Shown here piece by piece: positions 3,107 to 53,396 of a stretch of 64,000 nt of DNA (its first letter is position 1; the number at the start of each line of letters is the position of its first letter). A model generated the notes under the pieces. That model made no database searches. It was not told the origin of the DNA and saw nothing but the letters and a program-made list of their open reading frames with translations. A program made the position numbers and the translations under genes. The stretch is from Porticoccaceae bacterium (lineage in GTDB: Bacteria; Pseudomonadota; Gammaproteobacteria; Pseudomonadales; Porticoccaceae), in NCBI GenBank assembly GCA_029252555.1, contig JAQXBF010000037.1, positions 1 to 64,000 of the forward strand, given 5' to 3'.

Positions 3107-3433
3107 TCAAAAGGGGGAGTCGAGCCACAGAGACAGCGTTTTGAATTCTCATCCGTATCGAGTTAGAAGTTTAGGCTTTTTGAGCCGACAGCGCCGTAGC
3201 GCCTTGAAAAGAGTTAATTAAATTGATTGGGTGATGTGCTTAGTCTATCTGTCACCTTGATAAGGCGGATGGTCCCGAATCTCAGGGACAGAGCTTAGAG
3301 TGGTTATGTAGGTTAGAGCGCTATCAATAGTTTGATGATAAAGTGGTGAACATATCAAAATTACCCAATAGTAATTTGCTAATAGCAGCGGTTAGTGCAT
3401 CCTCGACACACTAAAGAGGGACTCTTGATCCTT
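3107..3433. other. Gene-free stretch between fliC and the oxygenase gene
   Basis: No convincing coding region is visible; all frames are broken by stops. It holds one sigma28-like element (3165-3191, listed separately). If the oxygenase was once a longer TPR fusion protein, no recognisable TPR remnant remains here. Confidence 0.5.
3165..3191 (+). promoter_or_regulatory. Possible sigma28 promoter upstream of the oxygenase gene
   Basis: AGAAGTTT (3165-3172), an 11-bp spacer, then GCCGACAG (3184-3191). This is 12 of 16 matches to TAAAGTTT-N11-GCCGATAA with exact spacing. It sits about 240 bp before the gene, which is far, so the assignment is tentative. Confidence 0.4.
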
Positions 3434-20776: not shown

Positions 20777-21058
20777 CTATTTTGGTCGATAGCCTTCGGG
20801 CTCAATACCTTTGAGCCAGTACACCCAAGATAAAACAACTGCCACCGCTACATATAAATTTTCTGGAATTTCTTCTTTTAATTCGAGCTGACTCAGCAAT
20901 GCCACCAGCTGTGGGTCTTCAGCAATATGCACGCCTTGCTTTTTTGCCTCATCAATAATTGCCTCTGCCCACTCGCCCTCCCCTTTTGCCGTGAGTATGG
21001 GTGCTGGGTTATGCCCATATTCAAGGGCGATCGCTTTTCTGATAAATGTATAGGTCAT
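20777..21058 (-). CDS. FlhB C-terminal-domain paralog (FlhX/FhlB-like)
   Basis: Free-standing copy of the FlhB/EscU cytoplasmic switch domain, 93 residues. It begins in the region that matches the FlhB cleavage loop, with GHNPAP where FlhB has NPTH or NPEH, then AKGEGEWAEAIIDEAKKQGVHIAEDPQLV, parallel to the FlhB pattern of AKG..A..IRE.A....P. The His after NPx is absent, so autocleavage is not expected. There are no transmembrane helices. It overlaps the preceding fliK-like gene by 4 bases, so the pair is translationally coupled, as for similar pairs known in pseudomonads. Its likely role is tuning export specificity. Confidence 0.85.
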   Translation of the reverse strand: MTYTFIRKAIALEYGHNPAPILTAKGEGEWAEAIIDEAKKQGVHIAEDPQLVALLSQLELKEEIPENLYVAVAVVLSWVYWLKGIEPEGYRPK

Positions 21059-22131
21059 GTTCGTACATCCACCACCTGCCCTGGGCCAGACAATGTGGGG
21101 TCAATGGTCGGCCGCCGAGCATCTAGCAACGTCAGTTTCGACAGCTCCAACCCAAAGCCCCTAAGCTGCTGCACTAGGTCCGACGAAGCTGAACGGGCAA
21201 TAGCCACTGCACCTGGACGGTCGGCCCAAAGTATCATTTCTATCTCAGCGCTGGCTTTAAGCGTGGTCTTTAGCCACAGCTCGCCCATTGAATCAGTCTC
21301 GGTGTGCAGGTTAATGACCCAGTCTGCCTCTTCCTCTCCCTCATAATTTGCTTCCCGTTCTATATGCACAGCTACCGGATGGGCATCAAAAAAGGGCAAC
21401 ACAAAATGGTATGAGACCTCGCGACTTTGCTGGGCCTGTAAACCTTCGATCTGGTAACTTTCGATTTCATCGATCGCGCGGCTGAGCTCGGCAATTGCGC
21501 GAGTTTGATTTGGCAATGTCGCTTTTAGCAGGTTGCGCAAAAACTGTTTCATATCTGGGCGCGCCGCACCTTGCTGCATCAATAAGTACTCGCCAAACAG
21601 ACCAGAACTGAGTAGGCCGTTGCGCACCACATCTGGTGTTATGCGCTGCATGCTGGTTAGCAGCTGGCTCGCCTGCTGCTTGGCATTAGCCGCGCCCAAC
21701 TGGTTAACAAATTGCGTTATGGTTTCTTGGCGAAATAGCTGATTGACCATTGATGGTTGGTTCGGCCTATAAAGCAAACTGAGCAGTCGCGGAGAGGCAC
21801 CAAGTTCTGACGGTACCGGAATAGATGTTGAAGCAATATTGAGTTGATTGCCCAGAACAGGTTTTAGCGATCGCCCATAAATTGAGCTCTCGACACGAAA
21901 GTCTATCCGATCACCAATCTTGAACCGCTTGCTGTCGTCCCAATCCAATTCACGATTATTCAGAACTAATTTTAGCAGGCCACCACGGTCTTCGATAACA
22001 CCACGGACAATTTGATTGTCTCTAAGGCCTATGGCTTTGGCTACCTGTTCAGAAACCCGCGCAGCCGCGATACCCTCCATAGGCACTGGGGGCGGTCGTG
22101 GGCTTACATTGATTTGCTCTGGGCCTAACAC
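21055..22131 (-). CDS. Second FliK-like (Flg_hook domain) protein
   Basis: 358 residues. The C-terminal 150 residues resemble the FliK Flg_hook domain: a VSYHFVLPFFDAHPVAVHIE strand pair, then ELWLKTTLKASAEIEMILWADRPG, a helix DLVQQLRGFGLELSKL and a last short strand. The N-terminal half is unlike fliK at 37652-38731. Operon partnership with a stand-alone FlhB switch domain (4-base overlap) suggests the two act together on hook length or export switching. The function is inferred from family and context only. Confidence 0.72.
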   Translation of the reverse strand: MLGPEQINVSPRPPPVPMEGIAAARVSEQVAKAIGLRDNQIVRGVIEDRGGLLKLVLNNRELDWDDSKRFKIGDRIDFRVESSIYGRSLKPVLGNQLNIASTSIPVPSELGASPRLLSLLYRPNQPSMVNQLFRQETITQFVNQLGAANAKQQASQLLTSMQRITPDVVRNGLLSSGLFGEYLLMQQGAARPDMKQFLRNLLKATLPNQTRAIAELSRAIDEIESYQIEGLQAQQSREVSYHFVLPFFDAHPVAVHIEREANYEGEEEADWVINLHTETDSMGELWLKTTLKASAEIEMILWADRPGAVAIARSASSDLVQQLRGFGLELSKLTLLDARRPTIDPTLSGPGQVVDVRT

Positions 22132-22181: not shown

Positions 22182-22682
22182 CTAGGGGAACTGCACCCAG
22201 TCATCCCGCTCGTCATAATGAGAGGATTTTTTTGTGGATTTGGCAGCAGCGTCGGTAAAAATCACCTTGTGAATATCTGCGGCATCGGGGAGTTTGAGTT
22301 TACGGCCAGCAAACATCCAGTTGGGATTGCTGCGCTTAAAGGCATGTGGGTTAGCTCGCACTATGGCCTGTTGCAATATTTTTTTACGTACCGGCACATT
22401 GGGCACGGTGCGCTCAATAATTTGACTGAGCGTGTCGCCCAAACGAGTTTTGTAATAGCCATTTTCAGCGGCCATTACTGGCTGTTCTAGCCCTTCTTGC
22501 AATGCGCTAATATCCTGCATTAACTGAGCCAGGGCCTGTTCTGCATCGCTGGTGTCGGCAAAGGCCCCTCCGGCCGTCGCTGTGGCTACCAAACCTGTGG
22601 CAACTATGGCAATCATAGTCATCCAGAAAAGCTTGGCCATAAATGCTTTGAATGCGGTGATCATATTTGCAATTTTTTTCAT
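22182..22682 (-). CDS. LysM-domain exported protein of a flagellar locus
   Basis: 166 residues from ATG 22682, supported by AAGGA 7 bases upstream (a GTG at 22700 would precede the ribosome site). It has a hydrophobic signal (FWMTMIAIVATGLVATATAG, ending at AFA), a short helical segment, and a FimV-type LysM domain: GDTLSQIIERTV, then QQAIVRANPHAF and FAGRKLKLP. It probably binds peptidoglycan in the periplasm. Genes on either side are flagellar (flgT-like upstream, fliK-like downstream), so it may help anchor the basal body. This role is inferred. Confidence 0.7.
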   Translation of the reverse strand: MKKIANMITAFKAFMAKLFWMTMIAIVATGLVATATAGGAFADTSDAEQALAQLMQDISALQEGLEQPVMAAENGYYKTRLGDTLSQIIERTVPNVPVRKKILQQAIVRANPHAFKRSNPNWMFAGRKLKLPDAADIHKVIFTDAAAKSTKKSSHYDERDDWVQFP

Positions 22683-22755
22683 CGTTATTTCCTTAGTCAC
22701 TTTTTACTCTCTTTTGGCTAAGCCTTATATACCAGATTGAAACTAAATCTACTTA

Positions 22756-24932: not shown

Positions 24933-27041
24933 ATGGCTAACGCGATACTGTCAAACATACGTCAGGACATGTCAAAAATCGAACTCTCTGGGCTGGGTAT
25001 TCCCCTGCTGGTGTTGTTGATTCTGTCCATGCTGATCCTGCCGCTACCGCCATTTTTGCTCGATTTTCTATTTACTTTTAATATTTTACTAGGGGTGGTG
25101 ATTATTATGATCGCCATCAACAGTACTAAACCACTGGATTTCTCATCATTCCCGGCGATCTTGCTGCTAGCCACCATGCTGCGGCTAGGCCTCAATGTTG
25201 CCTCGACCAGACTTGTGCTGGTTAAAGGCCATGAAGGCCCAGATGCTGCGGGCAAGGTGATTGAGGCCTTTGGCGAGTTTGTGATTGCCGGCAACTATCT
25301 GGTCGGTTTTATTATCTTTACCATTCTAATGATTATTAACTTTATCGTTGTCACCAAAGGTGCCGGTCGAGTGTCAGAGGTTATTGCTCGCTTTACCTTG
25401 GACGCGATGCCCGGCAAACAGATGGCGATTGATGCCGACCTGAATGCCGGTGTGATTGATCAGGAGATGGCCAAGGCGCGCCGGGAAGAGATTTCCCAAG
25501 AATCTGATTTCTTCGGCTCTATGGATGGTGCGTCAAAATTCGTTAAAGGTGATGCAATTGCAGGCCTGCTGATTCTGATTATTAATATTGTCGGCGGCCT
25601 TATTGTTGGCTTGGGCCAACATGACCTCAGTTTTGCCGACGCAGGCCGCATCTATGTGCTGTTAACCATTGGCGACGGTCTGGTGGCACAGATTCCCTCA
25701 TTGTTACTGTCTCTGGCAACAGCCATTATCGTTACCCGAGTGACTACTTCTGAATCAATGACCGAACAGGCTAAATCTCAGCTCAATAACCCAATGGCGC
25801 TGATTGTAGCCGGTGGAATTCTGGTGCTGTTAGGTCTGGTGCCGGGCATGCCAACCTGGATATTTTTGGCTCTGGGTCTGGGTTCAGGCGCTCTGGGTAT
25901 TTCAATGTTTAGACAGGCAGAACTCGGCGAGCTGGTAAATGAAGATGCTGCCAATCAGGCCGAGGCCGCGACAGACCCTATGCAAGAAGAGCTGGATTGG
26001 GATGATGTGGATCAGGTTGATCTGGTGGCTCTTGATATAGGTTATGGGCTTATCCCTCTGGTTAATCCAGAGACTGGTGGCCAACTGCTGCCCCGTGTTA
26101 AAGGGGTGCGTAAAAAATTATCTGCCGAACTGGGCTTTTTGGTTCAACCTATCCGTATCCGCGACAACCTCGATTTATCACCCGATGTTTATCATATTGT
26201 CATGAATGGCGTGGTTCGCGGCAAAGGTGAAATCAAGGTAGGCAAGGAAATGGCGATTAATCCGGGCCAGGTCCATGGCACCATTGAGGGTATTCCCACT
26301 AAAGAGCCTGCGTTTGGGCTCGATGCTATTTGGATTGAACCCTCCCAGAGAGACTATGCGCGTACCCTTGGCTATACGGTTGTTGACCCGGCCACTGCCA
26401 TTGCAACCCATCTCAATACATTATTACGGGGCAGCGCATCTGAATTACTTAGCCATGACGAAACCCAGCAGTTGCTGGATAAGGTGGCAGACCGCTCTCC
26501 CAAGCTGGTGGAAGACCTGGTACCAGGCAAGCTTCCTCTGGCAACCATTACCAAGGTATTGCAAAACATCCTCGACGAGGGCGTCTCGGTTAGAGATATG
26601 CGCACCATTATTGAGGTGCTATCGACCGAAAGCAGCCGCACCCAGGATGCCGACGAATTAACCGCAGCGGTAAGACCCAGACTGGGACGCATGATTGTGC
26701 AAAGCCTAGTGGATATTAATGACAGCCTACCGGTTATCACGCTCAACCCTTCCCTTGAACAGATGCTGCACAATATTTTACAGCAGAGTAGCAGTACTCA
26801 GGGGCTAGTTATCGAACCTACATTGGCTGAGGGTCTGTTTAAAGCCCTTGCCGAAAATACCGAAGAGGTTGAAAACCAAGGACACCCTGCCGTACTGGTA
26901 GTGTCTCCCGGCATTCGCCCCTGGTTAGCCAAAATCATCAGACATCGACTCAGCGATCTCACTGTTCTCTCCTACAGTGAAATCCCCGACGACCAGGCCG
27001 TTAAGGTAGTCGCCACAGTTGATGTCGACGTCACAAATTAA
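24933..27041 (+). CDS. flhA: Flagellar export gate protein FlhA
   Basis: Export-gate subunit, 702 residues, usual length. Eight predicted transmembrane helices lie in about residues 20-320, including the FHIPEP-type signature region (LNVASTRLVL and the conserved DAMPGKQMAIDADLNAG loop). The cytoplasmic domain (about 340-700) has the conserved VVDPATAIATHL, and RTIIEVL segments. It begins the plus-strand set flhA-flhF-flhG-fliA. In the common gammaproteobacterial order flhB lies directly upstream; here flhB is on the other strand 6 kb away. Confidence 0.98.
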   Translation: MANAILSNIRQDMSKIELSGLGIPLLVLLILSMLILPLPPFLLDFLFTFNILLGVVIIMIAINSTKPLDFSSFPAILLLATMLRLGLNVASTRLVLVKGHEGPDAAGKVIEAFGEFVIAGNYLVGFIIFTILMIINFIVVTKGAGRVSEVIARFTLDAMPGKQMAIDADLNAGVIDQEMAKARREEISQESDFFGSMDGASKFVKGDAIAGLLILIINIVGGLIVGLGQHDLSFADAGRIYVLLTIGDGLVAQIPSLLLSLATAIIVTRVTTSESMTEQAKSQLNNPMALIVAGGILVLLGLVPGMPTWIFLALGLGSGALGISMFRQAELGELVNEDAANQAEAATDPMQEELDWDDVDQVDLVALDIGYGLIPLVNPETGGQLLPRVKGVRKKLSAELGFLVQPIRIRDNLDLSPDVYHIVMNGVVRGKGEIKVGKEMAINPGQVHGTIEGIPTKEPAFGLDAIWIEPSQRDYARTLGYTVVDPATAIATHLNTLLRGSASELLSHDETQQLLDKVADRSPKLVEDLVPGKLPLATITKVLQNILDEGVSVRDMRTIIEVLSTESSRTQDADELTAAVRPRLGRMIVQSLVDINDSLPVITLNPSLEQMLHNILQQSSSTQGLVIEPTLAEGLFKALAENTEEVENQGHPAVLVVSPGIRPWLAKIIRHRLSDLTVLSYSEIPDDQAVKVVATVDVDVTN

Positions 27042-27058
27042 TCAAAGGTAACAGGACG

Positions 27059-28288
27059 ATGGAACTACAAAGAATTCTCGCTAAAGACAGCCGCGCTGCA
27101 ATGGACAAGGTGTTTGAGCTCTATGGCCAAGATGCTCTGGTTGTATCTAACAAGAAAGCCAATGAGAAGACCGAAATTATTGTCGCTATTGAGGTGGCGC
27201 CGGAAACGGAGAAAACCCTCAGTGAGATGCAGGTTGCACCGGTAGACTTACCAGATTTTGATTTCTCTGATTCGATGGATTTCGATCAGGTCATGGAGTC
27301 CCATGTATTCAAGACTGCGCCTACCACAGCTGATGATCAGTTTTATGGCTCCCCAGACGACTTTAGTCTGGAGGGTAAAAAACCCTCTCTGACCGATACC
27401 ATGGCTATACCCAATGATCGCGAGCAGCTTCAGGCTCGAGAAATTGTCGATCTGGTCAAGCAGGAATTCGAGGTTATGCGACGGGAATTTAAATTGTCTC
27501 AACAGCTAGATGCCTGGAGCGGTACTCAGTCTGTTAGTGACAATATGCGCCCCTTGGTAGAAGCTTTTAATGAAACAGGTATGCCTGTAGGGCTGCGCGC
27601 GCTGCTGAGCGATACCATAAATGCCAGCACTGATCGTGACTCAGCGATAGCAGCAATTGCCAATATTCTCGGCAATGGCATAGAACATGTTCCTCTGATG
27701 GACGATATGCAGGGTATTCACGTGATCGCCGGTAGTTCTGGCTCGGGCAAATCACTGATGACCGGCCGTCTTGCAAAGCAAAAAGCACTGCGTTGCGATA
27801 GCCAGGATGTAGCCATTATTAGTTACAATGATGGGCGCTTTGGCGCTTGGAATCAAACTCAGCTAATTGGCTCTCAGGCCGGTGTGGATTGCTTCCGCGC
27901 CAACACGCCAGAGATGCTGGAACAGCTTTTACAGGAACTCGGCTCTCGCAGCCTGATTCTTATTGATACAGCGGGTGTCGACCTCAAAGCGCAGGTAACC
28001 GATCTGAACAAATTATTGCCTGAAGCACAGAGACATCTGGTTGTGGCGGCTGATGCCTCGGAGGCTTCAGTCAATCGGCAGTTAAAAGCTGGAGCCGGTG
28101 ACTGGGACTCTGTAATGCTGTCTCGGCTTGAGGATGATATCCATCCCTGGCCTGTTATTAATGCGTTACTGAATACCAATATACCGATCTCTATCTATGC
28201 TTATGAGCCCTCGATTACAGCCGCGCCAATTGCCCTTACAGGGTTTGATTTAGCGGAACACAGCTTAAATAACCTACCCGCTTGTTAA
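27059..28288 (+). CDS. flhF: Polar flagellar placement GTPase FlhF
   Basis: SRP-like GTPase that sets the polar site of flagellar assembly. It is 409 residues: a B domain with ILAKDSRAAMDKVFELYGQDALVVSNKK, an acidic linker (about 55-120), an N domain, and a G domain with a P-loop GSSGSGKS near 225-232 and LILIDTAGVD near 300. The P-loop is GxxGxGKS rather than the GPTGVGKT most common in FlhF, and the rest of the G domain is also divergent. It lies 17 bases after flhA. Confidence 0.93.
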   Translation: MELQRILAKDSRAAMDKVFELYGQDALVVSNKKANEKTEIIVAIEVAPETEKTLSEMQVAPVDLPDFDFSDSMDFDQVMESHVFKTAPTTADDQFYGSPDDFSLEGKKPSLTDTMAIPNDREQLQAREIVDLVKQEFEVMRREFKLSQQLDAWSGTQSVSDNMRPLVEAFNETGMPVGLRALLSDTINASTDRDSAIAAIANILGNGIEHVPLMDDMQGIHVIAGSSGSGKSLMTGRLAKQKALRCDSQDVAIISYNDGRFGAWNQTQLIGSQAGVDCFRANTPEMLEQLLQELGSRSLILIDTAGVDLKAQVTDLNKLLPEAQRHLVVAADASEASVNRQLKAGAGDWDSVMLSRLEDDIHPWPVINALLNTNIPISIYAYEPSITAAPIALTGFDLAEHSLNNLPAC

Positions 28289-28381
28289 ATTTGACTACCC
28301 ATTAGGGATGAACGAAAATGAATATATGCTTTCAACGGGCGACAAGTCTGATGTCAGGCAGGATTTTACCAAGGCAAAACA

Positions 28382-29209
28382 ATGACTAATAAAACTGCTA
28401 CTCAGATAATAGGAATTGCCAGCGGCAAAGGCGGCGTGGGTAAAACCACAGTCTCAGCCAATCTGGCTATTGCCCTCGCCTCTCTCGGTAAAAAAGTAAT
28501 GATCTTTGACGCTGATCTAGGTCTGGCCAATGCGCAGTTAGCGCTTGGGTGCCGAGCACCTTATAACTTTAGCCATGTGCTGTCTGGCGAGAAAACCCTG
28601 CAAGAGATTGTTGTTGAAGGCCCCTTGGGCGTGAAGCTGGTGCCTGGCGCCAGTGGTATTCAGCATCTGGCAGCGTTAAATGAAGCAGAGACGGCTGGCA
28701 TTATCCAATCGTTCTCTGAGATCGACGAAGAGCTCGACTATTTTATTGTCGATCTGGCCGCCGGGCTCTCAGATACAGTGATGACTTTTTTAAGTGCCTG
28801 TCAGCACCGCTTTATTGTCCTTAAAAACGAACCCTCTTCTATTGCCGATGCCTACGCCACTATCAAGGTCATGATTCAAGACTACGATCTGGACGGTATC
28901 AGCTTGATACCCAATAGCGTTTCCTCTCAAGCAGAGGGTGAGCGCTTATTCGGCAGTATTAATTCGGTTATACAGAACTTTTTGGGCCGTCAGGTAAATT
29001 ACCTGTACAGTATCGGCGAAGACGAGATGGTGCTGAGAGCAATCAAGGCATCCCAACCCCTGTCGATCTATGCACCCGCCAGCACGGCTACGCGTAACTT
29101 TGTCTCTCTGGCCAAATCGGTAATTGAGATTGAACCAGATATGTCAATCACAGGTGGCATGCAGTTTTTTGTCGAGCGGCTAGCCTCTCAGCAAATGAGC
29201 CACGCTTAG
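28382..29209 (+). CDS. flhG: MinD/ParA-type flagellar number ATPase FlhG (FleN)
   Basis: Controls flagellar number, usually by acting on FlhF and the FlrA/FleQ activator. It is 275 residues, with a deviant Walker A (SGKGGVGKTTVSANL) near the N-terminus, the MIFDADLGLAN switch, and FIVDLAAGLSD. The C-terminal helix that binds membrane is plausible. It lies 92 bases after flhF and 8 before fliA. Pseudomonas FleN inhibits FleQ through the AAA+ domain, so this regulation could persist although the FlrA-like protein here lacks its N-terminal domain. Confidence 0.95.
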   Translation: MTNKTATQIIGIASGKGGVGKTTVSANLAIALASLGKKVMIFDADLGLANAQLALGCRAPYNFSHVLSGEKTLQEIVVEGPLGVKLVPGASGIQHLAALNEAETAGIIQSFSEIDEELDYFIVDLAAGLSDTVMTFLSACQHRFIVLKNEPSSIADAYATIKVMIQDYDLDGISLIPNSVSSQAEGERLFGSINSVIQNFLGRQVNYLYSIGEDEMVLRAIKASQPLSIYAPASTATRNFVSLAKSVIEIEPDMSITGGMQFFVERLASQQMSHA

Positions 29210-29217
29210 GACAACCC

Positions 29218-29934
29218 ATGGCTGACATAAGTGTCTATGAAGATATTCAAGGAGCTGATCGGTCAAATGAACAGCTCCTTAAGCATATAGGCTTAGTCAA
29301 ACGTGTCGCCCTGCACCTCAAAACTCGACTGCCAAATTTTATGGAAGTCGATGAATTGATTCAGGTGGGTACAGTTGGGCTTATCGAAGCTGCTCGATCC
29401 TTTGATGCCAGCAAAGGCGTCGATTTTGAGATATTTGCCAAGAACCGTATTCGCGGTGCCATTCTCGATCAGGTCCGCAAGCTGTCTTATCTTCCAAGGT
29501 CCGCGATCGTCAATATTCGCGACCACAATGAAGCCGGCGCCCTGTTGGGTGGCGAGTTAGGTCGCGAGCCCACTCAGGCTGAATTAGCTGAGTTTATGGG
29601 CAAAGATATAGATAGCTTTCAGAAAGAGCGCACCCACGCCCACCAATTTCAAACCGTCTCCCTCGAGTCTCAGTTACCGGAGTCTGTGGATATGCCTGCG
29701 GGTGAATCCAACGAGCCCGAAGCTCATCTTGCCGAGGGACAGTTGATGTCTGCTCTGGCTGATTCAATAGAGTCTCTGCCAGAACGAGAAAAAACTATTG
29801 TCTCTCTCTACTATGTTGAAGAGATGAACCTCAAGGAAATCGGTGCCATCCTTGAGGTCAGTGAATCCCGTGTCAGCCAGCTTTTGTCTGCCACGGTGAA
29901 GCAGCTACGCAAGCATTTTGAGAGTAAGCAGTAA
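29218..29934 (+). CDS. fliA: Flagellar sigma factor FliA (sigma28)
   Basis: 238 residues, with region 2 (DELIQVGTVGLIEAARSFD, FEIFAKNRIRGAILDQVRK), region 3 and region 4 HTH (EMNLKEIGAILEVSESRVSQL). Length and motifs are standard. It directs late class genes; candidate targets in this window are fliC, flgM, fliS and the unknown gene at 29950-30987. The usual downstream cheYZAB genes are replaced by that convergent gene. Confidence 0.98.
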   Translation: MADISVYEDIQGADRSNEQLLKHIGLVKRVALHLKTRLPNFMEVDELIQVGTVGLIEAARSFDASKGVDFEIFAKNRIRGAILDQVRKLSYLPRSAIVNIRDHNEAGALLGGELGREPTQAELAEFMGKDIDSFQKERTHAHQFQTVSLESQLPESVDMPAGESNEPEAHLAEGQLMSALADSIESLPEREKTIVSLYYVEEMNLKEIGAILEVSESRVSQLLSATVKQLRKHFESKQ

Positions 29935-29949
29935 TAGCCAAACGGCCTA

Positions 29950-30987
29950 TTATTTGGAATTTCGAATTGAGTAATAAACCAGATTCGGATCTTTGGGTGC
30001 AACAGGGACGGTAATGCCTGCATCCTTTTCTTGCAGCGCTAACTGCCGCTCTAATACACCCCGGTAATTTTCCCTTTCGAGAGTAATCAAAGCCTGAACA
30101 CTTGCACTCAGGGCCTGAACTTCTTCTATTCGACCTTTAAACGATTCCAGCTTGGTGCCCAGGCTGACAATCTGCTTGGCCTGCTTGCGCAAGCCACCAC
30201 TTAGATCTTTGACCTGAGCCGCCACCTTGTCGGTTTCTACACTCACACTTTTCGCTGCCGCCTCGGGCACCTGTTGGCGCAAATTACTGGCTGTGGTTTC
30301 GGCTTTAGCAACCGCCTCACCCAGCAAAGTTTGCTGACCGGTGAAGGCCGTCTGCTTGGCCGCCAGCTCATCAATGGAGAGTTTCAGCCCCTCGAATGTA
30401 GCCAGAGCAGAATTCATACTGTTCATTCGCTCTGTCGTTTCAACCAACATATCATCGATCAGAGAACTCTGGCTAATAATCTGGTAGGTCATACCACCTA
30501 TCATGCCAAGCCCGATCACCAAGCCGATAATGGCGCCAATCAAGATTCGTTTAGATAGTTTGGCGGTATCGGCACCAGCGCTGACAACCAAATCAACCCG
30601 CTTTTGCAGCAAATCCAAGCCATTTTCCAGAGCCGAGGAGGCTCTGCGACTAACATCTGCTGCGCTGTTGGTCGCCTCAGCTGTGACCACTACATTTGGC
30701 AGCAGCAGCTCTAGGCGGCCAGAAATATTTTTGGCTTTACCCAGAACCTGAGAAAAGCGCTCAAGATCGCCTGGGTCCGGCAGCCTGTTGGCATCGTAGT
30801 CAGCTTCTTCTTCAGGGGTTAGTATATCGGTCAGGCCGTCCAGCACATCTGATACCGATTGGATATCATCTTCGAGGGAGGGCTCTGCAGGCGCTTCGCC
30901 TTCTGCACCCTCTGCACCTTCGGCGCCATCGACCTGCTCAAGGTTTTCCTCGTTTTCGTCTGGAGTTGTATTCTCTTCGTCTGCCAT
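29950..30987 (-). CDS. Unknown membrane coiled-coil protein with a sigma28 promoter
   Basis: 345 residues, no family recognised. An acidic, disordered N-terminus (1-75) carries a GAE triplet repeat near 21-29. A helical region follows (76-147), then one transmembrane helix (about 148-170, ILIGAIIGLVIGLGMIGGM), and a long periplasmic coiled coil with VEETTERM-like and heptad-like segments (about 175-325). The C-terminal tail is short (VAPKDPNLVYYSIRN). The start is ATG 30987 rather than 30993, by ribosome-site spacing. A sigma28 promoter with exact N11 spacing precedes it, placing it in the flagellar late regulon. It converges on fliA with 15 bases between. A chemoreceptor-like signalling domain is not present. 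Function is unknown. Confidence 0.85.
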   Translation of the reverse strand: MADEENTTPDENEENLEQVDGAEGAEGAEGEAPAEPSLEDDIQSVSDVLDGLTDILTPEEEADYDANRLPDPGDLERFSQVLGKAKNISGRLELLLPNVVVTAEATNSAADVSRRASSALENGLDLLQKRVDLVVSAGADTAKLSKRILIGAIIGLVIGLGMIGGMTYQIISQSSLIDDMLVETTERMNSMNSALATFEGLKLSIDELAAKQTAFTGQQTLLGEAVAKAETTASNLRQQVPEAAAKSVSVETDKVAAQVKDLSGGLRKQAKQIVSLGTKLESFKGRIEEVQALSASVQALITLERENYRGVLERQLALQEKDAGITVPVAPKDPNLVYYSIRNSK

Positions 30988-31044
30988 AACCATTCCGTAA
31001 GATTATTTATCTTTTCTGGATGCTATACATCCCATCACATTAAT

Positions 31045-31071
31045 TTATCGACAGTTCGGCCGGTAACTTTA
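31045..31071 (-). promoter_or_regulatory. sigma28 promoter of the unknown coiled-coil gene
   Basis: On the minus strand: TAAAGTTA, 11-bp spacer, GTCGATAA. This is 14 of 16 matches to TAAAGTTT-N11-GCCGATAA. It is the strongest sigma28 match in the window besides fliC. Transcription should begin about 50 bases before ATG 30987. Confidence 0.85.
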
Positions 31072-32685: not shown

Positions 32686-33834
32686 CTAGTCGGCAAGGGT
32701 TCCATCTGTGTTATACCTCATGCCTTCCGGCACTGCGGGATTGGGTTTTTCTGCAACAGCCGCTCCGGGGCCCAGGCTATTTAAGCTAAATACATAGGCA
32801 ATTACTTGCGCTACTGCATAGTACAGGGACTCGGGAATACTTTGGTTAACATCGGTCGTAAAATACAGGGCTCGGGCCAAGGTGGGCGACAAGAATACGG
32901 GTACAGCATTGTCGCCAGCTCGCTCTCGAATACCCTGGGCCAAGAAATCAACCCCTTTGGCCACCACCGTGGGCGCACCGCTACTGGACGGGTCGTAACT
33001 TAGGGCCACGGCGAAATGCTCGGGGTTGACGATAATCACATCGGCACCACCAACGGCGTCCATCATCTGACCCATGGCCATCTCTCGCTGCTTGCGACGA
33101 ATCTGCGCCTTGACCTCTGGCCGCCCTTCCGTATCTTTAAATTCGTCCTTCACTTCCTGTTTGGTCATCTTCATTTTTTGGCTGTGTTCGTAGAGCTGAT
33201 ACGGCACATCGATCGCCGCGGCAATAATCAGCGTTAATGTGACCAACACGGCGCCACCGGCGATTATTTCTCCCGCGCCTCTCATCGCCGGCTGTATATC
33301 CATAAACCCGAGGCCAATAAGCTGATCAAATTTGCTGCTCACCACCAGATACAGCACTATGCCTACCAGGCCAAACTTCACCACTGCTTTCGTTAAATCC
33401 ACCAGCGCCTTGGTGCCGAATATGCGTTTGAGGCCGGATAGAGGGTTAATCTTGCTAGCTTTTGGCGCTATCGCTTTCATGGAGAAATTAAAACCGCCGA
33501 GCATGCCTGCAGCACCAAAGGCAATCACAATCGCCAAGACAAAGATCGGCACAGCAACCAAAATGCCATCAAGAGCCTGATTGCCAAAACTGGTAGGCAA
33601 CAGGTTGTCAGAAAAAACATCTTTTCGATCAAAGACAAACCCGGTGGCAAAGACTTCACTGAGCTGAGTGATTAATGCTCCGCCAAAAATATACATAAAG
33701 CCTGCAACGCCAATCATCATCGCGGCGACAGACAGCTCTTGGGAACGCACCACCTGGCCGTCTTCGCGGGCTTTTTCAAGCCGCTTGGCGGTGGGTTCTT
33801 CTGTCTTTTCTGCTGTAGAATCCTGTTCCGCCAT
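32686..33834 (-). CDS. flhB: Flagellar export switch protein FlhB
   Basis: 382 residues. The N-terminal region has the conserved EKTEEPTAKRLEKAREDGQV, four transmembrane helices (about 30-210), the linker helix, and the cytoplasmic switch domain. The autocleavage motif is NPEH in place of NPTH, retaining Asn-Pro-x-His. The start overlaps the fliR stop by one base. Its C-terminal copy is encoded separately at 20777-21058. Confidence 0.97.
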   Translation of the reverse strand: MAEQDSTAEKTEEPTAKRLEKAREDGQVVRSQELSVAAMMIGVAGFMYIFGGALITQLSEVFATGFVFDRKDVFSDNLLPTSFGNQALDGILVAVPIFVLAIVIAFGAAGMLGGFNFSMKAIAPKASKINPLSGLKRIFGTKALVDLTKAVVKFGLVGIVLYLVVSSKFDQLIGLGFMDIQPAMRGAGEIIAGGAVLVTLTLIIAAAIDVPYQLYEHSQKMKMTKQEVKDEFKDTEGRPEVKAQIRRKQREMAMGQMMDAVGGADVIIVNPEHFAVALSYDPSSSGAPTVVAKGVDFLAQGIRERAGDNAVPVFLSPTLARALYFTTDVNQSIPESLYYAVAQVIAYVFSLNSLGPGAAVAEKPNPAVPEGMRYNTDGTLAD

Positions 33835-34604
33835 TAGGCAACCCCCAAAGCTTGGTTCATGACCTTAAAGGACTCTTGCCACAGCCATTGGATACGAAAC
33901 CCAATGCTGCTCATTGACATGGACAGCAGCACAATTCCAGCCAGTATCATTGCCGGAAAACCAACTGCAAAAATATTAAGCGCGGGGGCGGCTCGGGTGA
34001 TCACACCCAAGCCTATGTTGATTAGAAGCAATGACACCATAATGGGCAGTGCCAATAAAACAGCACCCAAAAAGATCATTGAACTCCATTGAATCATCAG
34101 TACCAACAATGGCTGTGCCCCAAACTCCTGCCCTATTGGCAGCAATTGAAAGCTTTCGAGCAGTAGGGAAATCACTATGATATGCCCTCCCAGCGCCAAA
34201 AATATCAAAGTCGAACAGATAATCAGGAACTGGGCAATCACCGGAACATTCCCCATATTGGGATCAACCATATTAGCCATGCTCAGGCCCATTGATGCTG
34301 ATATGGCCTGGCCACCTACAATCAGCGCTGAGTTCACTATCTGCAGCAATGTGCCCAATGTGACGCCGATAAATATCTGTATAAAGATTTCCCGCAGGCC
34401 CGCAGCGGTCACTGGGTCAATCACGGGCCAGTCGGTCAGCGGGTAAACCATCCACGTCAGTAACACCGCAAGTAGCACGCGAATCCTCACTGTGACTGCC
34501 TGAATGGAGAAAAAGGGTGCCGTCAGCAAGAAGGCCGATATCCGTATCATCGGCCAAAGCAGCGTATAAAAAAGCTGCACAATCTCCGCGACAAGGAGAT
34601 CCAT
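33834..34604 (-). CDS. fliR: Flagellar export protein FliR
   Basis: Inner-membrane export gate subunit, 256 residues, strongly hydrophobic with 6 or so predicted membrane segments; it carries the conserved MIRISAFLLTAPFFS near the N-terminus. It overlaps flhB and fliQ by one base each, indicating translational coupling. The order fliP-fliQ-fliR-flhB is canonical. Confidence 0.97.
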   Translation of the reverse strand: MDLLVAEIVQLFYTLLWPMIRISAFLLTAPFFSIQAVTVRIRVLLAVLLTWMVYPLTDWPVIDPVTAAGLREIFIQIFIGVTLGTLLQIVNSALIVGGQAISASMGLSMANMVDPNMGNVPVIAQFLIICSTLIFLALGGHIIVISLLLESFQLLPIGQEFGAQPLLVLMIQWSSMIFLGAVLLALPIMVSLLLINIGLGVITRAAPALNIFAVGFPAMILAGIVLLSMSMSSIGFRIQWLWQESFKVMNQALGVA

Positions 34605-34873
34605 TACATAAATAGCGTAGGAATACGCTCGAAGATACGGCGGAAAAAATCGACCATTACGGCGATCTGCCAGCCTCCAAAGATAACCAGAGCCAATACC
34701 ATCACGGCTAGTTTGGGAATAAAACTTAGGGTCATCTCTTGAATAGATGTGGCTGCCTGAAAGATACCAATTAAAAGGCCTACACCCAGTGCAACACCTA
34801 GCAATGGTGCCGCAACCATGACCGCTATCCAGAGGGACTCTCTACCTAAATCAATTACCTGTGCAGCATCCAT
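34604..34873 (-). CDS. fliQ: Flagellar export protein FliQ
   Basis: 89-residue export gate subunit with two transmembrane helices, the family pattern of LGVALGVGLLIGIFQAATSIQE between them, and FIPKLAVMVLALVIFG. It is the normal length. It is 9 bases from fliP. Confidence 0.97.
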   Translation of the reverse strand: MDAAQVIDLGRESLWIAVMVAAPLLGVALGVGLLIGIFQAATSIQEMTLSFIPKLAVMVLALVIFGGWQIAVMVDFFRRIFERIPTLFM

Positions 34874-34882
34874 AATAAGCTC

Positions 34883-35749
34883 CTATGAAATTGCAAAACT
34901 GGAGGTCAGCGACCCCATAATCAATGTCCAACCATCGACCAGTACAAAAAGCATTAGCTTGAAGGGCATAGAGATCATCATGGGAGATAGCATCATCATA
35001 CCCATGGACATGAGCACACTGGCGACCACTAAATCGATCACCACAAAAGGGATATAGATTAAAAACCCAATCGAGAATGCACTTTTTAACTCGGAAGTAA
35101 TAAAAGCCGGGACCAGAGTGGTAAAAGGCACATCTGCAGGGGTTTCAATGTCTTCATTGCCAGCGATTTCGACAAACATGGCAATATCTGATTCACGAGT
35201 CTGGTTAAGCATAAAGTTTCGAATGGGTATTTCGGCCTCAACCAGGGCGGCTTCAAAACTGATTGTCTCTTCAAAATAGGGGGTAATCGCGTCGTCATAA
35301 ACACTGCTGAGCACCGGAGACATAATAAAAAGGGTAAGGAATAGAGCCAGGCCAACCAGCACCTGGTTGGGCGGTGTTTGAGCGGTGCCCAGAGCCTGTC
35401 GTAAAAGTGACATAACAATAATGATGCGCACAAAGGAGGTCATCATCAGTAATAGTGAAGGCAACAGCGTGAGCACTGTCATCAGAGCTAATAATTGTAG
35501 GGTTAAGCTGTATTCGGTACCGCCGCTGCCATCATCAACCATATTAACAATGGGTAGGCCCGCTTGGGAGAGGGCTGGGCTGGAAAAGCTAAGGGCTATA
35601 AGGCCGAGAACAAGTGCACGCCCAACGGAGGGGTGGCCAATAGAGCGGTGGTTAAAGACAGGGACGATAGAGCGCAGAAATATTCGAAAGTGAGTAATCA
35701 TTCTCGGCGCAAAAGCGGGTAGATCTCTGTCGATCAACCATCGGAGCAT
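34883..35749 (-). CDS. fliP: Flagellar export protein FliP
   Basis: 288 residues, slightly longer than the E. coli 245. It has a cleavable N-terminal leader (about 1-60, ending near SPALSQA), then FliP signatures TSFVRIIIVMSLLRQALGTAQ and VDLVVASVLMSMGMMMLSP. Several membrane helices are present. It overlaps none but is 3 bases from fliO. The extra N-terminal 30 residues may mean the true start is at an internal Met. Confidence 0.96.
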   Translation of the reverse strand: MLRWLIDRDLPAFAPRMITHFRIFLRSIVPVFNHRSIGHPSVGRALVLGLIALSFSSPALSQAGLPIVNMVDDGSGGTEYSLTLQLLALMTVLTLLPSLLLMMTSFVRIIIVMSLLRQALGTAQTPPNQVLVGLALFLTLFIMSPVLSSVYDDAITPYFEETISFEAALVEAEIPIRNFMLNQTRESDIAMFVEIAGNEDIETPADVPFTTLVPAFITSELKSAFSIGFLIYIPFVVIDLVVASVLMSMGMMMLSPMMISMPFKLMLFVLVDGWTLIMGSLTSSFAIS

Positions 35750-35752
35750 GGT

Positions 35753-36136
35753 TCAATCCTTATTCTTATTAAACGCTTGGGAAAGCATGTCCTTGAAGTT
35801 GTTCAGCGGGCTTCCATTGTCACTGGTTTGGCCTAAACCAGCCTCGGACTCGCTACTATTAATAACATCTTCATCAACCGGCCAGCTGCCCAATTTTGTC
35901 ATGCTCTGAGGAGTAAGACCTATGAGCACCTGATCGCCGTTTAAGCTTACCAGTAAGAGTTTCTGGCGGCCACCAAGGTTTTGTATTTCAAGCAGTTTTA
36001 GCCGTTTATTACCTGTGTTGCCCAGATTTGGGCCCAGTTTTTTGATCGCGAACAAGGTGGCAACCAACATACCGATAACCAGCATGAAAGACGCCATCAT
36101 AGATAACCATTCGGTCCAACCAAACTCGGGCAACAT
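35753..36136 (-). CDS. fliO: Flagellar assembly protein FliO
   Basis: 127 residues with one transmembrane helix (about 11-30, MMASFMLVIGMLVATLF) and the FliO-type cytoplasmic beta segment LEIQNLGGRQKLLLVSLNGDQVLIGLT. It stabilises FliP during gate assembly. It lies between fliN and fliP, as usual. Confidence 0.9.
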   Translation of the reverse strand: MLPEFGWTEWLSMMASFMLVIGMLVATLFAIKKLGPNLGNTGNKRLKLLEIQNLGGRQKLLLVSLNGDQVLIGLTPQSMTKLGSWPVDEDVINSSESEAGLGQTSDNGSPLNNFKDMLSQAFNKNKD

Positions 36137-36148
36137 AGCAGTCTCGAC

Positions 36149-36484
36149 TTAAAGGTTAGATACTCGCTCCACAGCGGGTATTACTCTGGTTAATTTAACA
36201 CCATAACGGTCATTGACCAAGACCACTTCACCCTGGGCTACAAGGGTATTGTTAACCAGCAGGTCGAGGGGCTCACCGGCTAATCTGTCGAGTTCGACAA
36301 CACTGCCCTGTGTGAGACGCATAAGGTCGCGAATTTTAAGTTCAGTTCTGCCAACCTCGACTGAGATATTTACAGGAATATTTTCCAAAACATCAGCATT
36401 GATACTCGCCGGAGCCTCTATCTGGGCAGGTTGCTCTGCCACGTCTGTTGCTTCGAGTTCTTCATTCACTTCTGGGTCTGCCAT
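36149..36484 (-). CDS. fliN: Flagellar C-ring switch protein FliN
   Basis: 111 residues with a short acidic N-terminus and the SpoA/FliN domain: IPVNISVEVGRTELKIRDLMRLTQGSVVELD and the NDRYGVKLTRV ending. Length is short but normal for the polar-flagellum type. It follows fliM after 56 bases. Confidence 0.97.
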   Translation of the reverse strand: MADPEVNEELEATDVAEQPAQIEAPASINADVLENIPVNISVEVGRTELKIRDLMRLTQGSVVELDRLAGEPLDLLVNNTLVAQGEVVLVNDRYGVKLTRVIPAVERVSNL

Positions 36485-36540: not shown

Positions 36541-37527
36541 TTAAGCTTCAGGCTCCAATGGCCGAATAATTTGAACAGCCATCTGGGCGCCTTGCACGCC
36601 TATCTCTGCATCAAATAGCGGTGTGTCACATGCGAAAACTCGCGCATAGTCGTCTTTTTTAAAGTAAAGAATTTCGCCCTCTCTGGCCTGGTTAAATTCT
36701 TTTAGGGTGGTTTCAATTTCTCCAATCACCACTTTCACGTTTAACGCGGCATCGCTTGAAGCCGAACGCAAATTGGCCCGCCAAGATGCATCAGACTCTT
36801 GCTCACCACTCTGGACCCGGCTAGACAGCAGTTCACGCACAGGCTTTAGCATGCCGTAGGGATATATAATTTCGACGGTGCCAGTGACGTCATCACCAAA
36901 GTCAATTTCGAATCGATTGACGATAACCAAGTCATTTTCTTCTGCGATTTCCATAAATTGCGGATTGATATCTGTAGCGACAGTCTCGCACCTGATGGGC
37001 ATCACCGGAGTCCAAGCTTCCTGAAGAGCTCCGTACAAAATATTCGTCATAATATTAATGATACTGCCCTCAATCGGAGTGAAGGCTCGATCTGGCAACA
37101 GTGTGATGTTGGAGCCACCAAATCCACTAAAAAAATTGTCTAGGCAGGCGAATATGACACTGGGCTGGATGCTGATCATTGATAGCCCGCGCAGTGGGAG
37201 CAGATTAACTGTACTCAGTGCCAGCGGGGCCTCTAGCGTTTTCATATAGTCCTGAATGGGGACAATTTCTGCCTTGGCGGCGCTTACTCTTGCCGTGGTT
37301 CGCAAGACATCTAGCACCCCCACTCTAAATTCTCTTATGAAACGTTCATTGATGAGATTAATAGCGGTCAGATTCATGCTTAGGGAGCGATCTTCATTTG
37401 TAATATCGTGCTTTATCGCCAGCGCGCTAACATTTAGGCCTGTATTCGTTTCAACGGTACCGTCCTCAATACCAACGGTCAGAGCCTCTAGCTCTTCCGG
37501 CGATAAAAGATTTTTCATGTCAGCCAT
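36541..37527 (-). CDS. fliM: Flagellar motor switch protein FliM
   Basis: 328 residues. The N-terminal CheY-binding peptide is present (LLSPEELEAL). The CheC-like middle domain has FIREFRVGVLDVL and the SpoA C-terminus follows. ATG 37527 has a GGAGG site 5 bases upstream. FliL, which usually sits between fliK and fliM, is absent; the 124-base gap holds only a short palindrome (TGTCGA/TCGACA near 37562). Confidence 0.97.
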   Translation of the reverse strand: MADMKNLLSPEELEALTVGIEDGTVETNTGLNVSALAIKHDITNEDRSLSMNLTAINLINERFIREFRVGVLDVLRTTARVSAAKAEIVPIQDYMKTLEAPLALSTVNLLPLRGLSMISIQPSVIFACLDNFFSGFGGSNITLLPDRAFTPIEGSIINIMTNILYGALQEAWTPVMPIRCETVATDINPQFMEIAEENDLVIVNRFEIDFGDDVTGTVEIIYPYGMLKPVRELLSSRVQSGEQESDASWRANLRSASSDAALNVKVVIGEIETTLKEFNQAREGEILYFKKDDYARVFACDTPLFDAEIGVQGAQMAVQIIRPLEPEA

Positions 37528-51373: not shown

Positions 51374-52354
51374 TTAGCTGCCGTCGATAACGATCTCAAT
51401 ACGACGGTTCTTGGCGCGTCCCTCGCTGGTGTCATTGGACATAATGGGCTTGGTATCAGCCAGGCCTGTCACCATCACATTGCCGCCTTTAAGAGAGGCG
51501 GAGTCGAGTAGGTAGTCTGCCACAGCAGCGGAGCGCGCGGCAGATAGATCCCAGTTAGATCTAAAGCGTTCGCTAAAGGCCACGGGTACATTGTCCGTAT
51601 GGCCTTCAATGGTAATAAGGCCATCGGCGCCCGTTAAGGAAACGCCCACTTTATCGAGTAATTTATTAAAGCCCGGCTGAAGTTCTGCGGCACCACTCTT
51701 GAACGAGCCCTGTTCTGCCAAGCGGACAATAATGATTTCACCCTCACGGATAACCTCGACCAGTTCTTTATCAATTTCGTCTGCAAGGGTCTCACGAATA
51801 CGGCGATACTGTTCGGCAATGGCTGCTTCTCGCGCCAGTTGCTCGGCAGACACATCGTCGGCTTCTTGGGAGATTTTCAGCCCAACTTCAATTTTTGTCT
51901 GGGCATCCGCTACTTTGGCGTAAATTTCTAACTGTTCTTGGAGAATCCTGGCTCCATCAGTGGCCTCGGCGGTCTCTGATTTAGCCACCTCGACCACAAT
52001 CTGCATATCTTTAATGCTCACCTCTACTTTGCCTTCGGTTATTTCCTTTTCCATTGCTGCTTTAACAATCTCAAACCCAGCATCGGTATCCGCGTCTGCT
52101 TTTTTAAGCCCGTCATCCTCCTGCTCACCCTCGTTAACCGGGGGCGCATTCTCTGCGGGAATTTCATCCTGAACACCGAGGTTTTTACCAGTTTGGCCTT
52201 CGGATGCCATCACCGAGTCCTGCTTTTCCATTTCCGCAAAGGCGATAAGCAACACAAAAAATGACATCAGCAGTGTTGCCATGTCAGCGAAGGTCGCCAT
52301 CCACATTGGGGAGCCATTTTTACATTTTGGGCATTCGTCTTTCTTACTTGCCAC
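51374..52354 (-). CDS. PomB/MotB-like stator protein, second copy
   Basis: 326 residues from GTG 52354, which has GAGGTGA six bases upstream; a TTG at 52360 is also possible. It begins with CPKCK, then one transmembrane helix (about 18-38) with FADMATLLMSFF containing the ion-binding Asp. The C-terminal OmpA domain is intact (EGHTDNVPVAFSERF, then ARSAAVADYLL and RAKNRRIEIV). The periplasmic linker holds a partial copy of the plug region (ITEGKVEVSIKDMQIVVEV resembles the pre-OmpA strand). It overlaps the first copy by 11 bases. PomA is upstream. Confidence 0.9.
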   Translation of the reverse strand: MASKKDECPKCKNGSPMWMATFADMATLLMSFFVLLIAFAEMEKQDSVMASEGQTGKNLGVQDEIPAENAPPVNEGEQEDDGLKKADADTDAGFEIVKAAMEKEITEGKVEVSIKDMQIVVEVAKSETAEATDGARILQEQLEIYAKVADAQTKIEVGLKISQEADDVSAEQLAREAAIAEQYRRIRETLADEIDKELVEVIREGEIIIVRLAEQGSFKSGAAELQPGFNKLLDKVGVSLTGADGLITIEGHTDNVPVAFSERFRSNWDLSAARSAAVADYLLDSASLKGGNVMVTGLADTKPIMSNDTSEGRAKNRRIEIVIDGS

Positions 52355-53396
52355 GGACAATCACCTCAATACGTCGGTTACGTGATCGGCCCGCAGGGGT
52401 GTCATTACTTTCCAATGGTCTTGAGTCGGCAAGCCCGGCAACAATAATGCGTTCCTGAGTCAGCCCCACTTCTTTTATTAGCACAGCGGCCACTGAGGAG
52501 GATCGCGCAGACGAGAGATCCCAGTTGGAGGTGAAGCGATCACTAAAGGCGATGGGTACGTTATCCGTATGGCCTTCGACTCGAATACGACCTTCCGACA
52601 GAGCTAGCGTTGAGCCAATCTTTTTCAGCAAGCCTCTAAAGCCGTCCTGAACATTGGCGCTACCGGAAACAAAGGAGCCTTGGCTGGCTAATCTTACAAT
52701 CAGGTTTTCGTCTTGAAGAACCAACTCCACCGCGCCAGCTTCGATTTCTTCTGCCAAGTCTTCGGTCATTTTCTCGTACTGGGCCTTAGCGTCTTGGCGT
52801 CGGCGTTCCTTCGCGGCTTCCAAAGCCGCCAAATCCTGCTTGCGAACTTCTATCTCAGTAGTAGTGGCGGCCTGAGCAGCCAACACTTTTTCTGATACAT
52901 CTAGTACTGGCTGGGTCAGGTAGAAGTCGGTGGACTCGGCATCGCGGCTGGTAAATGTCTGCAACTCAACAATAACTCGATTAGCGGTTTTTCTAAGTAC
53001 CACAGACCCCTCTTTTATCTCTTTGGCCAAGCTTTCTCGCAGCGACGCCAAAGTCTCTTCTGCTCTCAGGGCAGCTAGTTCCTCTGGGCTAAGATTTTTT
53101 AACTTGAGGTCAGACTCACTATCGCTCGCATCTTCAGAGATCATTAGGGTGGTAGAAATTGGGATTTCGATCAGAGGGGTAATTACGGTTGCACCAAAGG
53201 CCGCGTTTAAAGAGCCCATCGCCTTGGCTCGCTCTCCCACATCCATAGTCGCAAAGTTATACAGCAGAGCAAAGAATGCCATCAATAGGGTCGCCATATC
53301 GGCGAAGGTTGTCATCCAACTTGGTGCCACCTTCTTGCACGGCGGGCAGTCTTCCGGTATCTCCTGCCCTTCTTCGAGCAGCTCTTCATCAGCCAC
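52344..53396 (-). CDS. pomB: PomB/MotB-like stator protein, first copy
   Basis: 350 residues. A CPPCKK motif (about 17-22) is followed by one transmembrane helix with FADMATLLMAFF and its ion-binding Asp (about 33). The OmpA domain is complete (VEGHTDNVPIAFSDRF, NRRIEVIV). The linker contains a stretch, AKEIKEGSVVLRKTANRVIVELQ, that resembles the strand before the OmpA domain (EEIEAGAVELVLQDENLIVRL), so the segment looks duplicated. It lies 71 bases after pomA. Two stator B subunits from one operon could form mixed or alternative stators. Confidence 0.92.
   Translation of the reverse strand: MADEELLEEGQEIPEDCPPCKKVAPSWMTTFADMATLLMAFFALLYNFATMDVGERAKAMGSLNAAFGATVITPLIEIPISTTLMISEDASDSESDLKLKNLSPEELAALRAEETLASLRESLAKEIKEGSVVLRKTANRVIVELQTFTSRDAESTDFYLTQPVLDVSEKVLAAQAATTTEIEVRKQDLAALEAAKERRRQDAKAQYEKMTEDLAEEIEAGAVELVLQDENLIVRLASQGSFVSGSANVQDGFRGLLKKIGSTLALSEGRIRVEGHTDNVPIAFSDRFTSNWDLSSARSSSVAAVLIKEVGLTQERIIVAGLADSRPLESNDTPAGRSRNRRIEVIVRGK

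Follow-up and report, generated by a model that had tools for sequence, protein, structure and literature searches.

The gene that converges on fliA in the window (the whole 64,000-nucleotide stretch of DNA analysed here, from the Porticoccaceae genome G000) encodes a predicted membrane-anchored coiled-coil protein that is probably part of the flagellar motor. On the sequence comparisons presented below, the gene marks a distinct flagellar system that cuts across organism families, and the flagellar system of its carriers seems to operate without chemotaxis. An earlier note on this DNA had put the gene forward as a candidate for an undescribed flagellar component; the link to flagella has turned out to be strong, through co-occurrence with FliA and a conserved promoter site, and the apparently chemotaxis-free system is an addition beyond what that note had claimed. 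We infer the expression of the protein, its location at the motor, its contacts with partners and any effect on torque or stators. The literature covered (titles and the openings of abstracts, mostly outside subscription journals) gave no account of the protein, of the gene module to which it belongs or of a chemotaxis-free SAR92 flagellum.

Table 1. Positions in the window of the features discussed in the text
Feature	Position	Strand	Remarks
Flagellin sigma28-like site, 3 mismatches	1687-1713	+	-10 box GTCGATAA identical to the candidate's
flhA-flhF-flhG	24933..29209	+	syntenic in relatives
fliA (sigma28), convergent neighbour	29218..29934	+	family profile match
Candidate gene	29950..30993	-	ATG at 30993, stop at 29950, 347 aa
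Predicted periplasmic tail, codons 172-347	29953..30480	-	coiled-coil, about 180 residues
Best conserved periplasmic motif ALITLERENY..., codons 293-325	30019..30117	-	homolog alignment
Predicted membrane helix, codons 150-168	30490..30546	-	hydropathy 2.41
Conserved, predicted cytoplasmic stretch, codons 85-146	30556..30741	-	alignment; missing from L080 and L081
Sigma28 (FliA) site TAAAGTTA-N11-GTCGATAA	31045-31071	-	14/16 versus consensus
SPOR-like module partner, 493 aa	31173..32654	-	borderline C-terminal SPOR, E 0.0014, 19.4 bits versus cut-off 21
flhB-fliR-fliQ-fliP-fliO-fliN	32686..36484	-	upstream of the candidate, same strand
FliM N-terminus LSPEELEAL	37480..37506	-	LSQxEIDALL in che-bearing relatives

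Predicted architecture of the protein

The candidate gene does converge on fliA, as described earlier, with 15 bp between the two frames. A hydropathy scan of the protein reveals a single hydrophobic stretch (residues 150-168), and no second one was found in the window protein, in which it was looked for. Five Lys or Arg residues lie in the 20 residues before this helix versus one in the 20 after it, and from this distribution the N-terminus is predicted to be cytoplasmic and the C-terminal coil periplasmic. Asp and Glu together make up 36% of residues 1-70, and the tail has a coiled-coil periodicity with a z of 4.5. The same build recurs in the 23 aligned homologs, whose identity to the window protein falls as low as 15%. 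All 23 have a strong membrane helix (strongest hydrophobic window 2.0-2.7) followed by 169-197 residues, and the share of Asp plus Glu ahead of the helix is 15-47%. Lys and Arg are commoner in the roughly 15 residues before the helix than after it in 22 homologs, L164 being a tie, and the hydrophobic periodicity of the coil exceeds that of shuffles (z > 2) in 20. The acidic arm, single membrane helix and long periplasmic coiled coil of the earlier description are therefore upheld as a prediction by hydropathy, charge and periodicity.

Conservation within SAR92 peaks in the pre-helix cytoplasmic stretch (in part of the loci) and in the C-terminal periplasmic motif, after which the candidate protein has 22 residues left; the acidic arm is variable and poorly conserved. 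Pro243 is near-invariant in the periplasmic coil, which possibly forms a hairpin. The proteins of L080 and L081, two loci that lack the extra genes orfA and orfB described below, do not keep the pre-helix stretch, and this absence hints that the stretch might contact the orfA and orfB partners; counter to such a contact, the G000 and G019 proteins do keep it. AlphaFold predictions from two-row alignments have a mean pLDDT of 52.6 for the candidate protein and 40.0 for its SPOR-like neighbour, values too poor to establish a hairpin.

The protein had been described as having no recognisable family, and sensitive searches bear this out, having returned weak coiled-coil matches only. The best match of the window protein has an E of 0.018 in Pfam (eight matches at E<=1) and 0.00055 in NCBIfam (19.2 bits versus a cut-off of 125); a PDB profile search gave a best E of 0.00045. 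For 24 homologs, the best 25 of 64 Pfam families contain coiled-coil regions only. The strongest of these, DUF7310 ('coiled-coil region of unknown function'), matches 12 of the 24 at E<=0.1, with a best E of 1.2e-7, and does not match the window protein itself. We read the Pfam, NCBIfam and PDB matches as common coiled-coil character and not as membership of a known family.

Distribution of the gene and the FlhA tree

Among 50 genomes of the genus, the gene was found in 28 and a FliA over the family cut-off in 28: 27 genomes have both, 21 have neither and two are discordant (Fisher p 7e-12, a value that ignores kinship). In one discordant genome, G037 (73% complete), the gene is on a 4-kb contig and no FliA scores above the cut-off. 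The other, G007, has FliA together with a divergent protein of the same build in the same place (L095:9325-10236), a copy assigned by position, build and C-terminal motif. As to homologs in non-flagellated relatives, which the earlier note had raised as an argument against its own proposal, the gene is also missing from 21 of the 22 genus genomes that have no FliA above this cut-off. A named relative, the SAR92 clade bacterium H231 (L002), has the gene at 75-76% identity; H231 is described as a cultured strain, and SAR92 as an abundant coastal group (PMC10746254). We take the genus to be SAR92.

In the order as a whole (390 genomes), the gene was found at E<=1e-8 in 25, and relatives of the module were found in three other families. 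FlhA is present at E<=1e-3 in 24 of the 25 carriers versus 291 of the 390 genomes overall; the FlhA-less carrier, G371, is a fragment in which flhB and fliA still lie beside the gene. This search under-counts, since G137 and G352 were missed by it and then found locally. Six more order genomes, with E from 2.9e-5 to 8.6e-4, were taken as chance matches, except for G415, which has orfA. Among 369 genomes of the class, nothing convincing was found outside the order. Besides the window's own genome, 22 of these matched, with a best E of 1.9e-7, and we take these matches as chance: none of the 19 loci that were fetched (L193-L211, each of about 3.4 kb; three of the 22 genomes gave no locus) has a neighbour matching the flagellar proteins of the window, and the matching protein in L201 is itself MotB-like.

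An FlhA tree of 48 rows places all 32 carrier rows on one side of one branch (SH-aLRT 99), and the carrier trait requires one change versus a shuffled mean of 13.7; the tree is of a quick kind with long branches, and its carriers include G415 (orfA only) and G007 (divergent copy). Genomes of the same family are split by this branch, such that two f1 g46 genomes (f1 being the candidate's own family), G348 of f40, G419 of f44 and three f38 genomes group with the non-carriers. The split could have arisen by transfer of the cluster or from an old pair of systems with differential loss, and the tree fits either.

Gene neighbourhood and module partners

Genes in the fetched loci were named by phmmer against the window proteins. 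In the genus loci that span fliA to flhB, the forward-reading flhA-flhF-flhG-fliA faces, on the other strand and in this order from fliA, the candidate gene, the SPOR-like gene and flhB-fliRQPONM. The SPOR-like gene sits directly after flhB and is conserved together with the candidate; in G007 and in one G032 cluster the divergent copy is in place and the SPOR-like gene was not matched. The SPOR-like partner has an N-terminal NTPase-like region and a membrane helix, both assigned by eye, and SPOR matched at E<=0.1 in 15 of its 18 members; we take the NTPase-like region to resemble that of DamX.

Between fliA and the candidate, most genus loci hold two extra, undescribed genes, orfA (about 180 aa) and orfB (about 215 aa), exemplified by L069:7036-7584 and L069:7602-8258, which have relatives in 22 other loci. 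Each was found in 23 of the 34 stretches searched (one stretch being from f15). Neither was found in the loci of G000, G019, G015, G020, G030, G032 and G042, and a whole-genome search for orfA found none in G000 or G019. The orfB protein has an N-terminal hydrophobic stretch and, by eye, a cytoplasmic body, a FipA-like shape, and no DUF2802 was found in its members. Family searches with orfA, orfB and the SPOR-like protein returned borderline SPOR only; a match of orfB to KEOPS Pcc1 (E 0.00039) and one of a single orfA member to MgtE_N (E 0.044) were taken as chance.

The module of SPOR-like gene, candidate, orfB and orfA is found as a full set in the same order in f15 and f1 g47 (L082, L173, L189, L172). 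In f40, flhB, the SPOR-like gene, the candidate and orfB are on one strand, with fliA-orfA on a separate contig. In f44, fliA-orfA-orfB faces the candidate gene; in G137 and G352 neither flhB nor the SPOR-like gene appeared within 5-7 kb, and in G402 the candidate, SPOR-like gene and flhB lie about 45 kb from fliA-orfA-orfB. In the f38 genome G187 the gene is isolated from the rest of the module, with flhA about 7 kb away. In three of five f15 loci (L168, L169 and L171, not L167 or L170), a second orfA copy sits some 2.2 kb from motA; the copy in L168 is placed between two uncharacterised proteins of 277 and 290 aa, near motA/motB.

Some drafts have irregular clusters. The L092 locus (G047) has its candidate and SPOR-like genes split into several frames, and L075 and L076 (G044) and L088-L090 (G032) represent two or three such flagellar clusters per draft, which could be mixed assemblies.

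The sigma28 promoter

The site ahead of the candidate was scored against what we take to be the sigma28 consensus, TAAAGTTT-N11-GCCGATAA. The near-consensus FliA promoter reported earlier, with its 14 matches in 16, stands; its position, then given as 60 bp upstream, needs correction, as the site really ends 51 bp before the ATG. Four sites in the window have three or fewer mismatches versus 0.47 expected, and the candidate's is the sole one with two; the 2.3-Mb genome has four sites with two mismatches. Genome-wide, no excess over a backward control was found at up to three mismatches (38 versus 39), and the promoter case therefore rests on position and conservation. Another two-mismatch site precedes a flaG-like gene close to one end of contig C2 (G000:C2:84838). 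The -10 box GTCGATAA is exact at the flagellin and flaG-like sites (gene names assigned by eye) and at the candidate, and acts as an internal control.

Scored with a consensus loosened after a strict-consensus run, and leaving out the loci cut by contig ends (L085, L086, L087, L089, L091 and L156), a site of at least 13/16 precedes the gene in 22 of 26 f1 loci, at -78 to -103 in 21 and at -208 in one more, where the start codon is uncertain. The f1 loci without a site at 13/16 are L080, L081, L088 and L095, of which L080 and L088 show a weaker one (12/16) at -82. By the same scoring, none of nine loci from f15, f40 and f44 has a sigma28 site ahead of the gene, and the single f38 locus has a 13/16 site. 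In the strict-consensus run, no more than 2 of 60 shuffles matched the locus in 16 of 24 cases. Conservation of gene plus promoter across relatives, which the earlier note had proposed to check, holds within f1 and does not extend to f15, f40 and f44. Sigma28 control looks like a trait of the SAR92 side of the family; late expression is therefore not universal, and read-through from the flhB side is possible.

Chemotaxis genes and FliM

Neither a CheW domain nor an MCP was found in the window's own genome (MCPsignal, PF00015, has 0 matches in the whole of it). The 28 flagellated genomes of the genus have no MCP in 15 cases and one in 13, with a CheW-domain match in 17; three genus genomes without FliA also have one MCP. 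In all 16 MCP-bearing genus genomes a CheW gene lies near the MCP on the same contig, accompanied in 13 by a large Hpt protein, a set that is presumably the Pil-Chp pilus system.

Outside the genus, no MCP was found in 21 of 22 carriers versus 1 of 39 flagellated non-carriers (median 14), where a carrier has the gene at E<=1e-8 or orfA (G415 and G337 count on orfA alone) and the non-carriers were chosen by hand among FlhA-positive genomes so that same-family ones were represented; G092 and G122 among them have weak matches in the order search. The exception among the carriers is G187, with five MCPs. The contrast is clean in f40 (carriers 0 versus 2-14) and in f44 (0 versus 4-13). In f15 the carriers have 0 versus 14 in G261, and 0 were likewise found in G112, which counts as a non-carrier by search; the f1 contrast is weak (0 or 1 versus 1, 1, 1 and 5). 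We rejected the idea that every chemotaxis-free flagellum has the module, considering that a single MCP is all that six of the 39 non-carriers have, and that G112 has none; loss of chemotaxis thus does not need the module.

Among 16 non-carrier loci downstream of flhA, 10 have che-size genes after fliA, called by size and a crude pattern in all cases and checked by Pfam in L183 and L188 only, where CheY (response regulator), CheZ, CheA and CheB follow fliA. No che-size genes after fliA were found in L175, L176, L177, L178 and L182, and fliA was not found in L186. The earlier statement that the candidate occupies the place of cheYZAB in related genomes accordingly holds with respect to other families of the order; most SAR92 relatives hold orfA and orfB there as well.

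CheY-P binding has been attributed to the FliM peptide LSQxEIDALL (PMC6700473). All 10 FliMs recovered from 15 non-carrier loci have its EIDALL portion, and none of the 27 recovered from 30 carrier loci does (the carrier loci come from fewer genomes, some with two clusters). The che-poor non-carriers G080, G163, G235 and G419 (L218, L219, L220 and L225) gave no FliM, so that the FliM change may follow the loss of chemotaxis and not the gain of the module. In most carrier FliMs the peptide reads LSPEELDAL or similar and is conserved within SAR92; conservation of an altered peptide suggests that it has a new partner or has kept a structural role.

Comparison with known systems

The E-ring proteins FlgY, MotE and FlbB recall the candidate, being described as motor scaffolds with a long coiled coil at the membrane or in the periplasm, and FlbB has a transmembrane helix, as does the candidate (PMC13023049). 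The predicted helix of the candidate is internal, behind an arm of about 150 residues, and the E-ring trait of a helix followed by a coiled coil is predicted for it as well. E-ring proteins end in an ARM-like MgtE_N head (PMC13023049), whereas MgtE_N (PF03448) is neither among the eight Pfam matches of the window protein at E<=1 nor among the best 25 of 64 families for the 24 homologs. Furthermore, the E-ring is reported to assemble very early and to be absent from the beta- and gamma-proteobacteria (PMC13023049), while the candidate promoter is late in SAR92. The candidate may work like an E-ring or stator-scaffold protein, and we do not file it in that family because no MgtE_N head was found in it.

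FipA resembles the candidate in being a single-pass membrane protein encoded next to flhF-flhG-fliA (PMC11620751). The V. parahaemolyticus FipA has 163 aa and a cytoplasmic DUF2802 body (PMC11620751), whereas the candidate body is predicted to be periplasmic and a Pfam scan of the window protein at E<=1 gives no DUF2802. FimV/HubP likewise has one membrane helix and an acidic cytoplasmic region (PMC12918733). Its order is periplasmic LysM, helix and acidic cytoplasmic TPR/FimV end; the candidate is reversed, judging by its Lys and Arg distribution, and none of these domains is found in it by Pfam.

Periplasmic accessories of polar motors include MotX/MotY, FlgO/FlgP/FlgT and FliL. FlgT- and FlgP-like genes occur in the window cluster (matches below Pfam cut-offs), and at E<=1 Pfam assigns the window protein to none of these families. 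MCPs are helical coiled-coil membrane proteins, often under sigma28; the candidate differs in that its coil is predicted to be periplasmic and that Pfam finds no MCP signalling or HAMP domain in it. MotB-type stators have a plug and an OmpA-like peptidoglycan-binding domain, and the window protein has no Pfam match to OmpA.

Proposed role and alternatives

We consider the chances even that the protein serves a distinct marine gammaproteobacterial flagellar system as a periplasmic accessory anchored in the inner membrane, most likely as a scaffold or stabiliser around the rotor and stators. The N-terminal part, acidic arm and conserved stretch together, would be kept in the cytoplasm and one helix would pass through the membrane. 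The coiled coil of about 180 residues would extend toward the peptidoglycan, possibly as a helical hairpin broken at Pro243, and would present the conserved C-terminal motif. Considering that the gene has its own sigma28 promoter in SAR92, as flagellin does, the protein probably acts on the assembled motor, where it would scaffold or stabilise the rotor and stators together with its SPOR-like (peptidoglycan-binding) neighbour. Co-occurrence with FliA, the shared gene order, the conserved promoter site, the recurring build of the homologs, the single branch of the FlhA tree and the extra orfA copy close to motA speak for such an accessory. Counting against it, the content and order of the module vary: the window's genome is without orfA, and f40 and f44 are arranged differently. 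The earlier note had left a scaffold, a stator accessory or a placement factor as roles suited to the shape of the protein; the choice among them is one that we infer, and the last is disfavoured, since the promoter is late and placement would precede assembly. With an accessory of this kind, the Gammaproteobacteria, from which the E-ring is reportedly absent, could have their own periplasmic scaffold, and because the cultured H231 carries the gene, an undescribed motor accessory would be directly testable. If SAR92 members swim without chemotaxis, using a flagellar system that spans several families, models of marine food-finding need a class of blind swimmers.

Perhaps the module as a whole replaces CheY control, sensing the periplasm or the wall and setting speed, stopping or reversal, with the altered FliM as its dock. 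The module is at the cheYZAB place of relatives, MCPs are missing from nearly all non-genus carriers and present in nearly all non-carriers, the window's genome is devoid of both MCP and CheW domain, and the carrier FliM is without EIDALL and yet conserves its own form; the site of the gene and the FliM peptide are the strongest points in favour. This seems unlikely to us. The module was not found in the non-carriers with a single MCP or in G112, orfA is missing from the window's genome, G187 combines the candidate protein with its MCPs, the FliM change may be secondary to chemotaxis loss, and no sensor or enzyme domain was found. In addition, the FlhA tree fits a single origin, so that the co-occurrence does not amount to many independent events. 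We regard as unlikely, too, a chemotaxis-free flagellum under other control, with the module at the old cheYZAB site, the rewritten FliM peptide binding a module protein and the motor answering the wall, load or another local cue in place of receptor arrays.

A polar landmark or placement factor acting with FlhF/FlhG, bound through the acidic arm as an inverted FimV/HubP or FipA stand-in, would suit a gene that adjoins flhF-flhG-fliA: FipA is also encoded just downstream of the flhF-flhG-fliA operon (PMC11620751), and the arm recalls the acidic region of FimV/HubP (PMC12918733). We find this quite improbable, given a late sigma28 promoter that comes at the wrong time, Pfam matches of the window protein that include no DUF2802, LysM or FimV domain, the poor conservation of the arm and the presence of orfB, which is nearer the FipA shape than the candidate, though without DUF2802. 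Long membrane coiled coils are common among envelope proteins, and the neighbouring gene is SPOR-like, as might be expected of a cell-envelope or division protein merely travelling with the flagellar cluster. It is difficult to see, however, why such a gene would be missing from all but one of the genus genomes without FliA, have its own sigma28 site in SAR92 and occur, in our sample, in one flagellar lineage only, across families; we consider this reading very improbable.

Other genes of the window

Several other genes of the window deserve mention. A short gene resembling, by eye, the FlhB C-terminus (20777-21058) lies beside a second FliK-like gene (21055-22131), and the pair recurs in relatives. 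A weakly LysM-like gene (22182-22700) by the flgT- and flgP-like genes also recurs in the cluster of relatives. Two adjoining genes, MotB-like by eye, follow a single MotA-like gene (51374-53396). Finally, a gene that by eye resembles 2-oxoglutarate/Fe(II) oxygenases (3395-4030) lies between flagellin and a filament-cap-like gene, where modification of the filament is possible.
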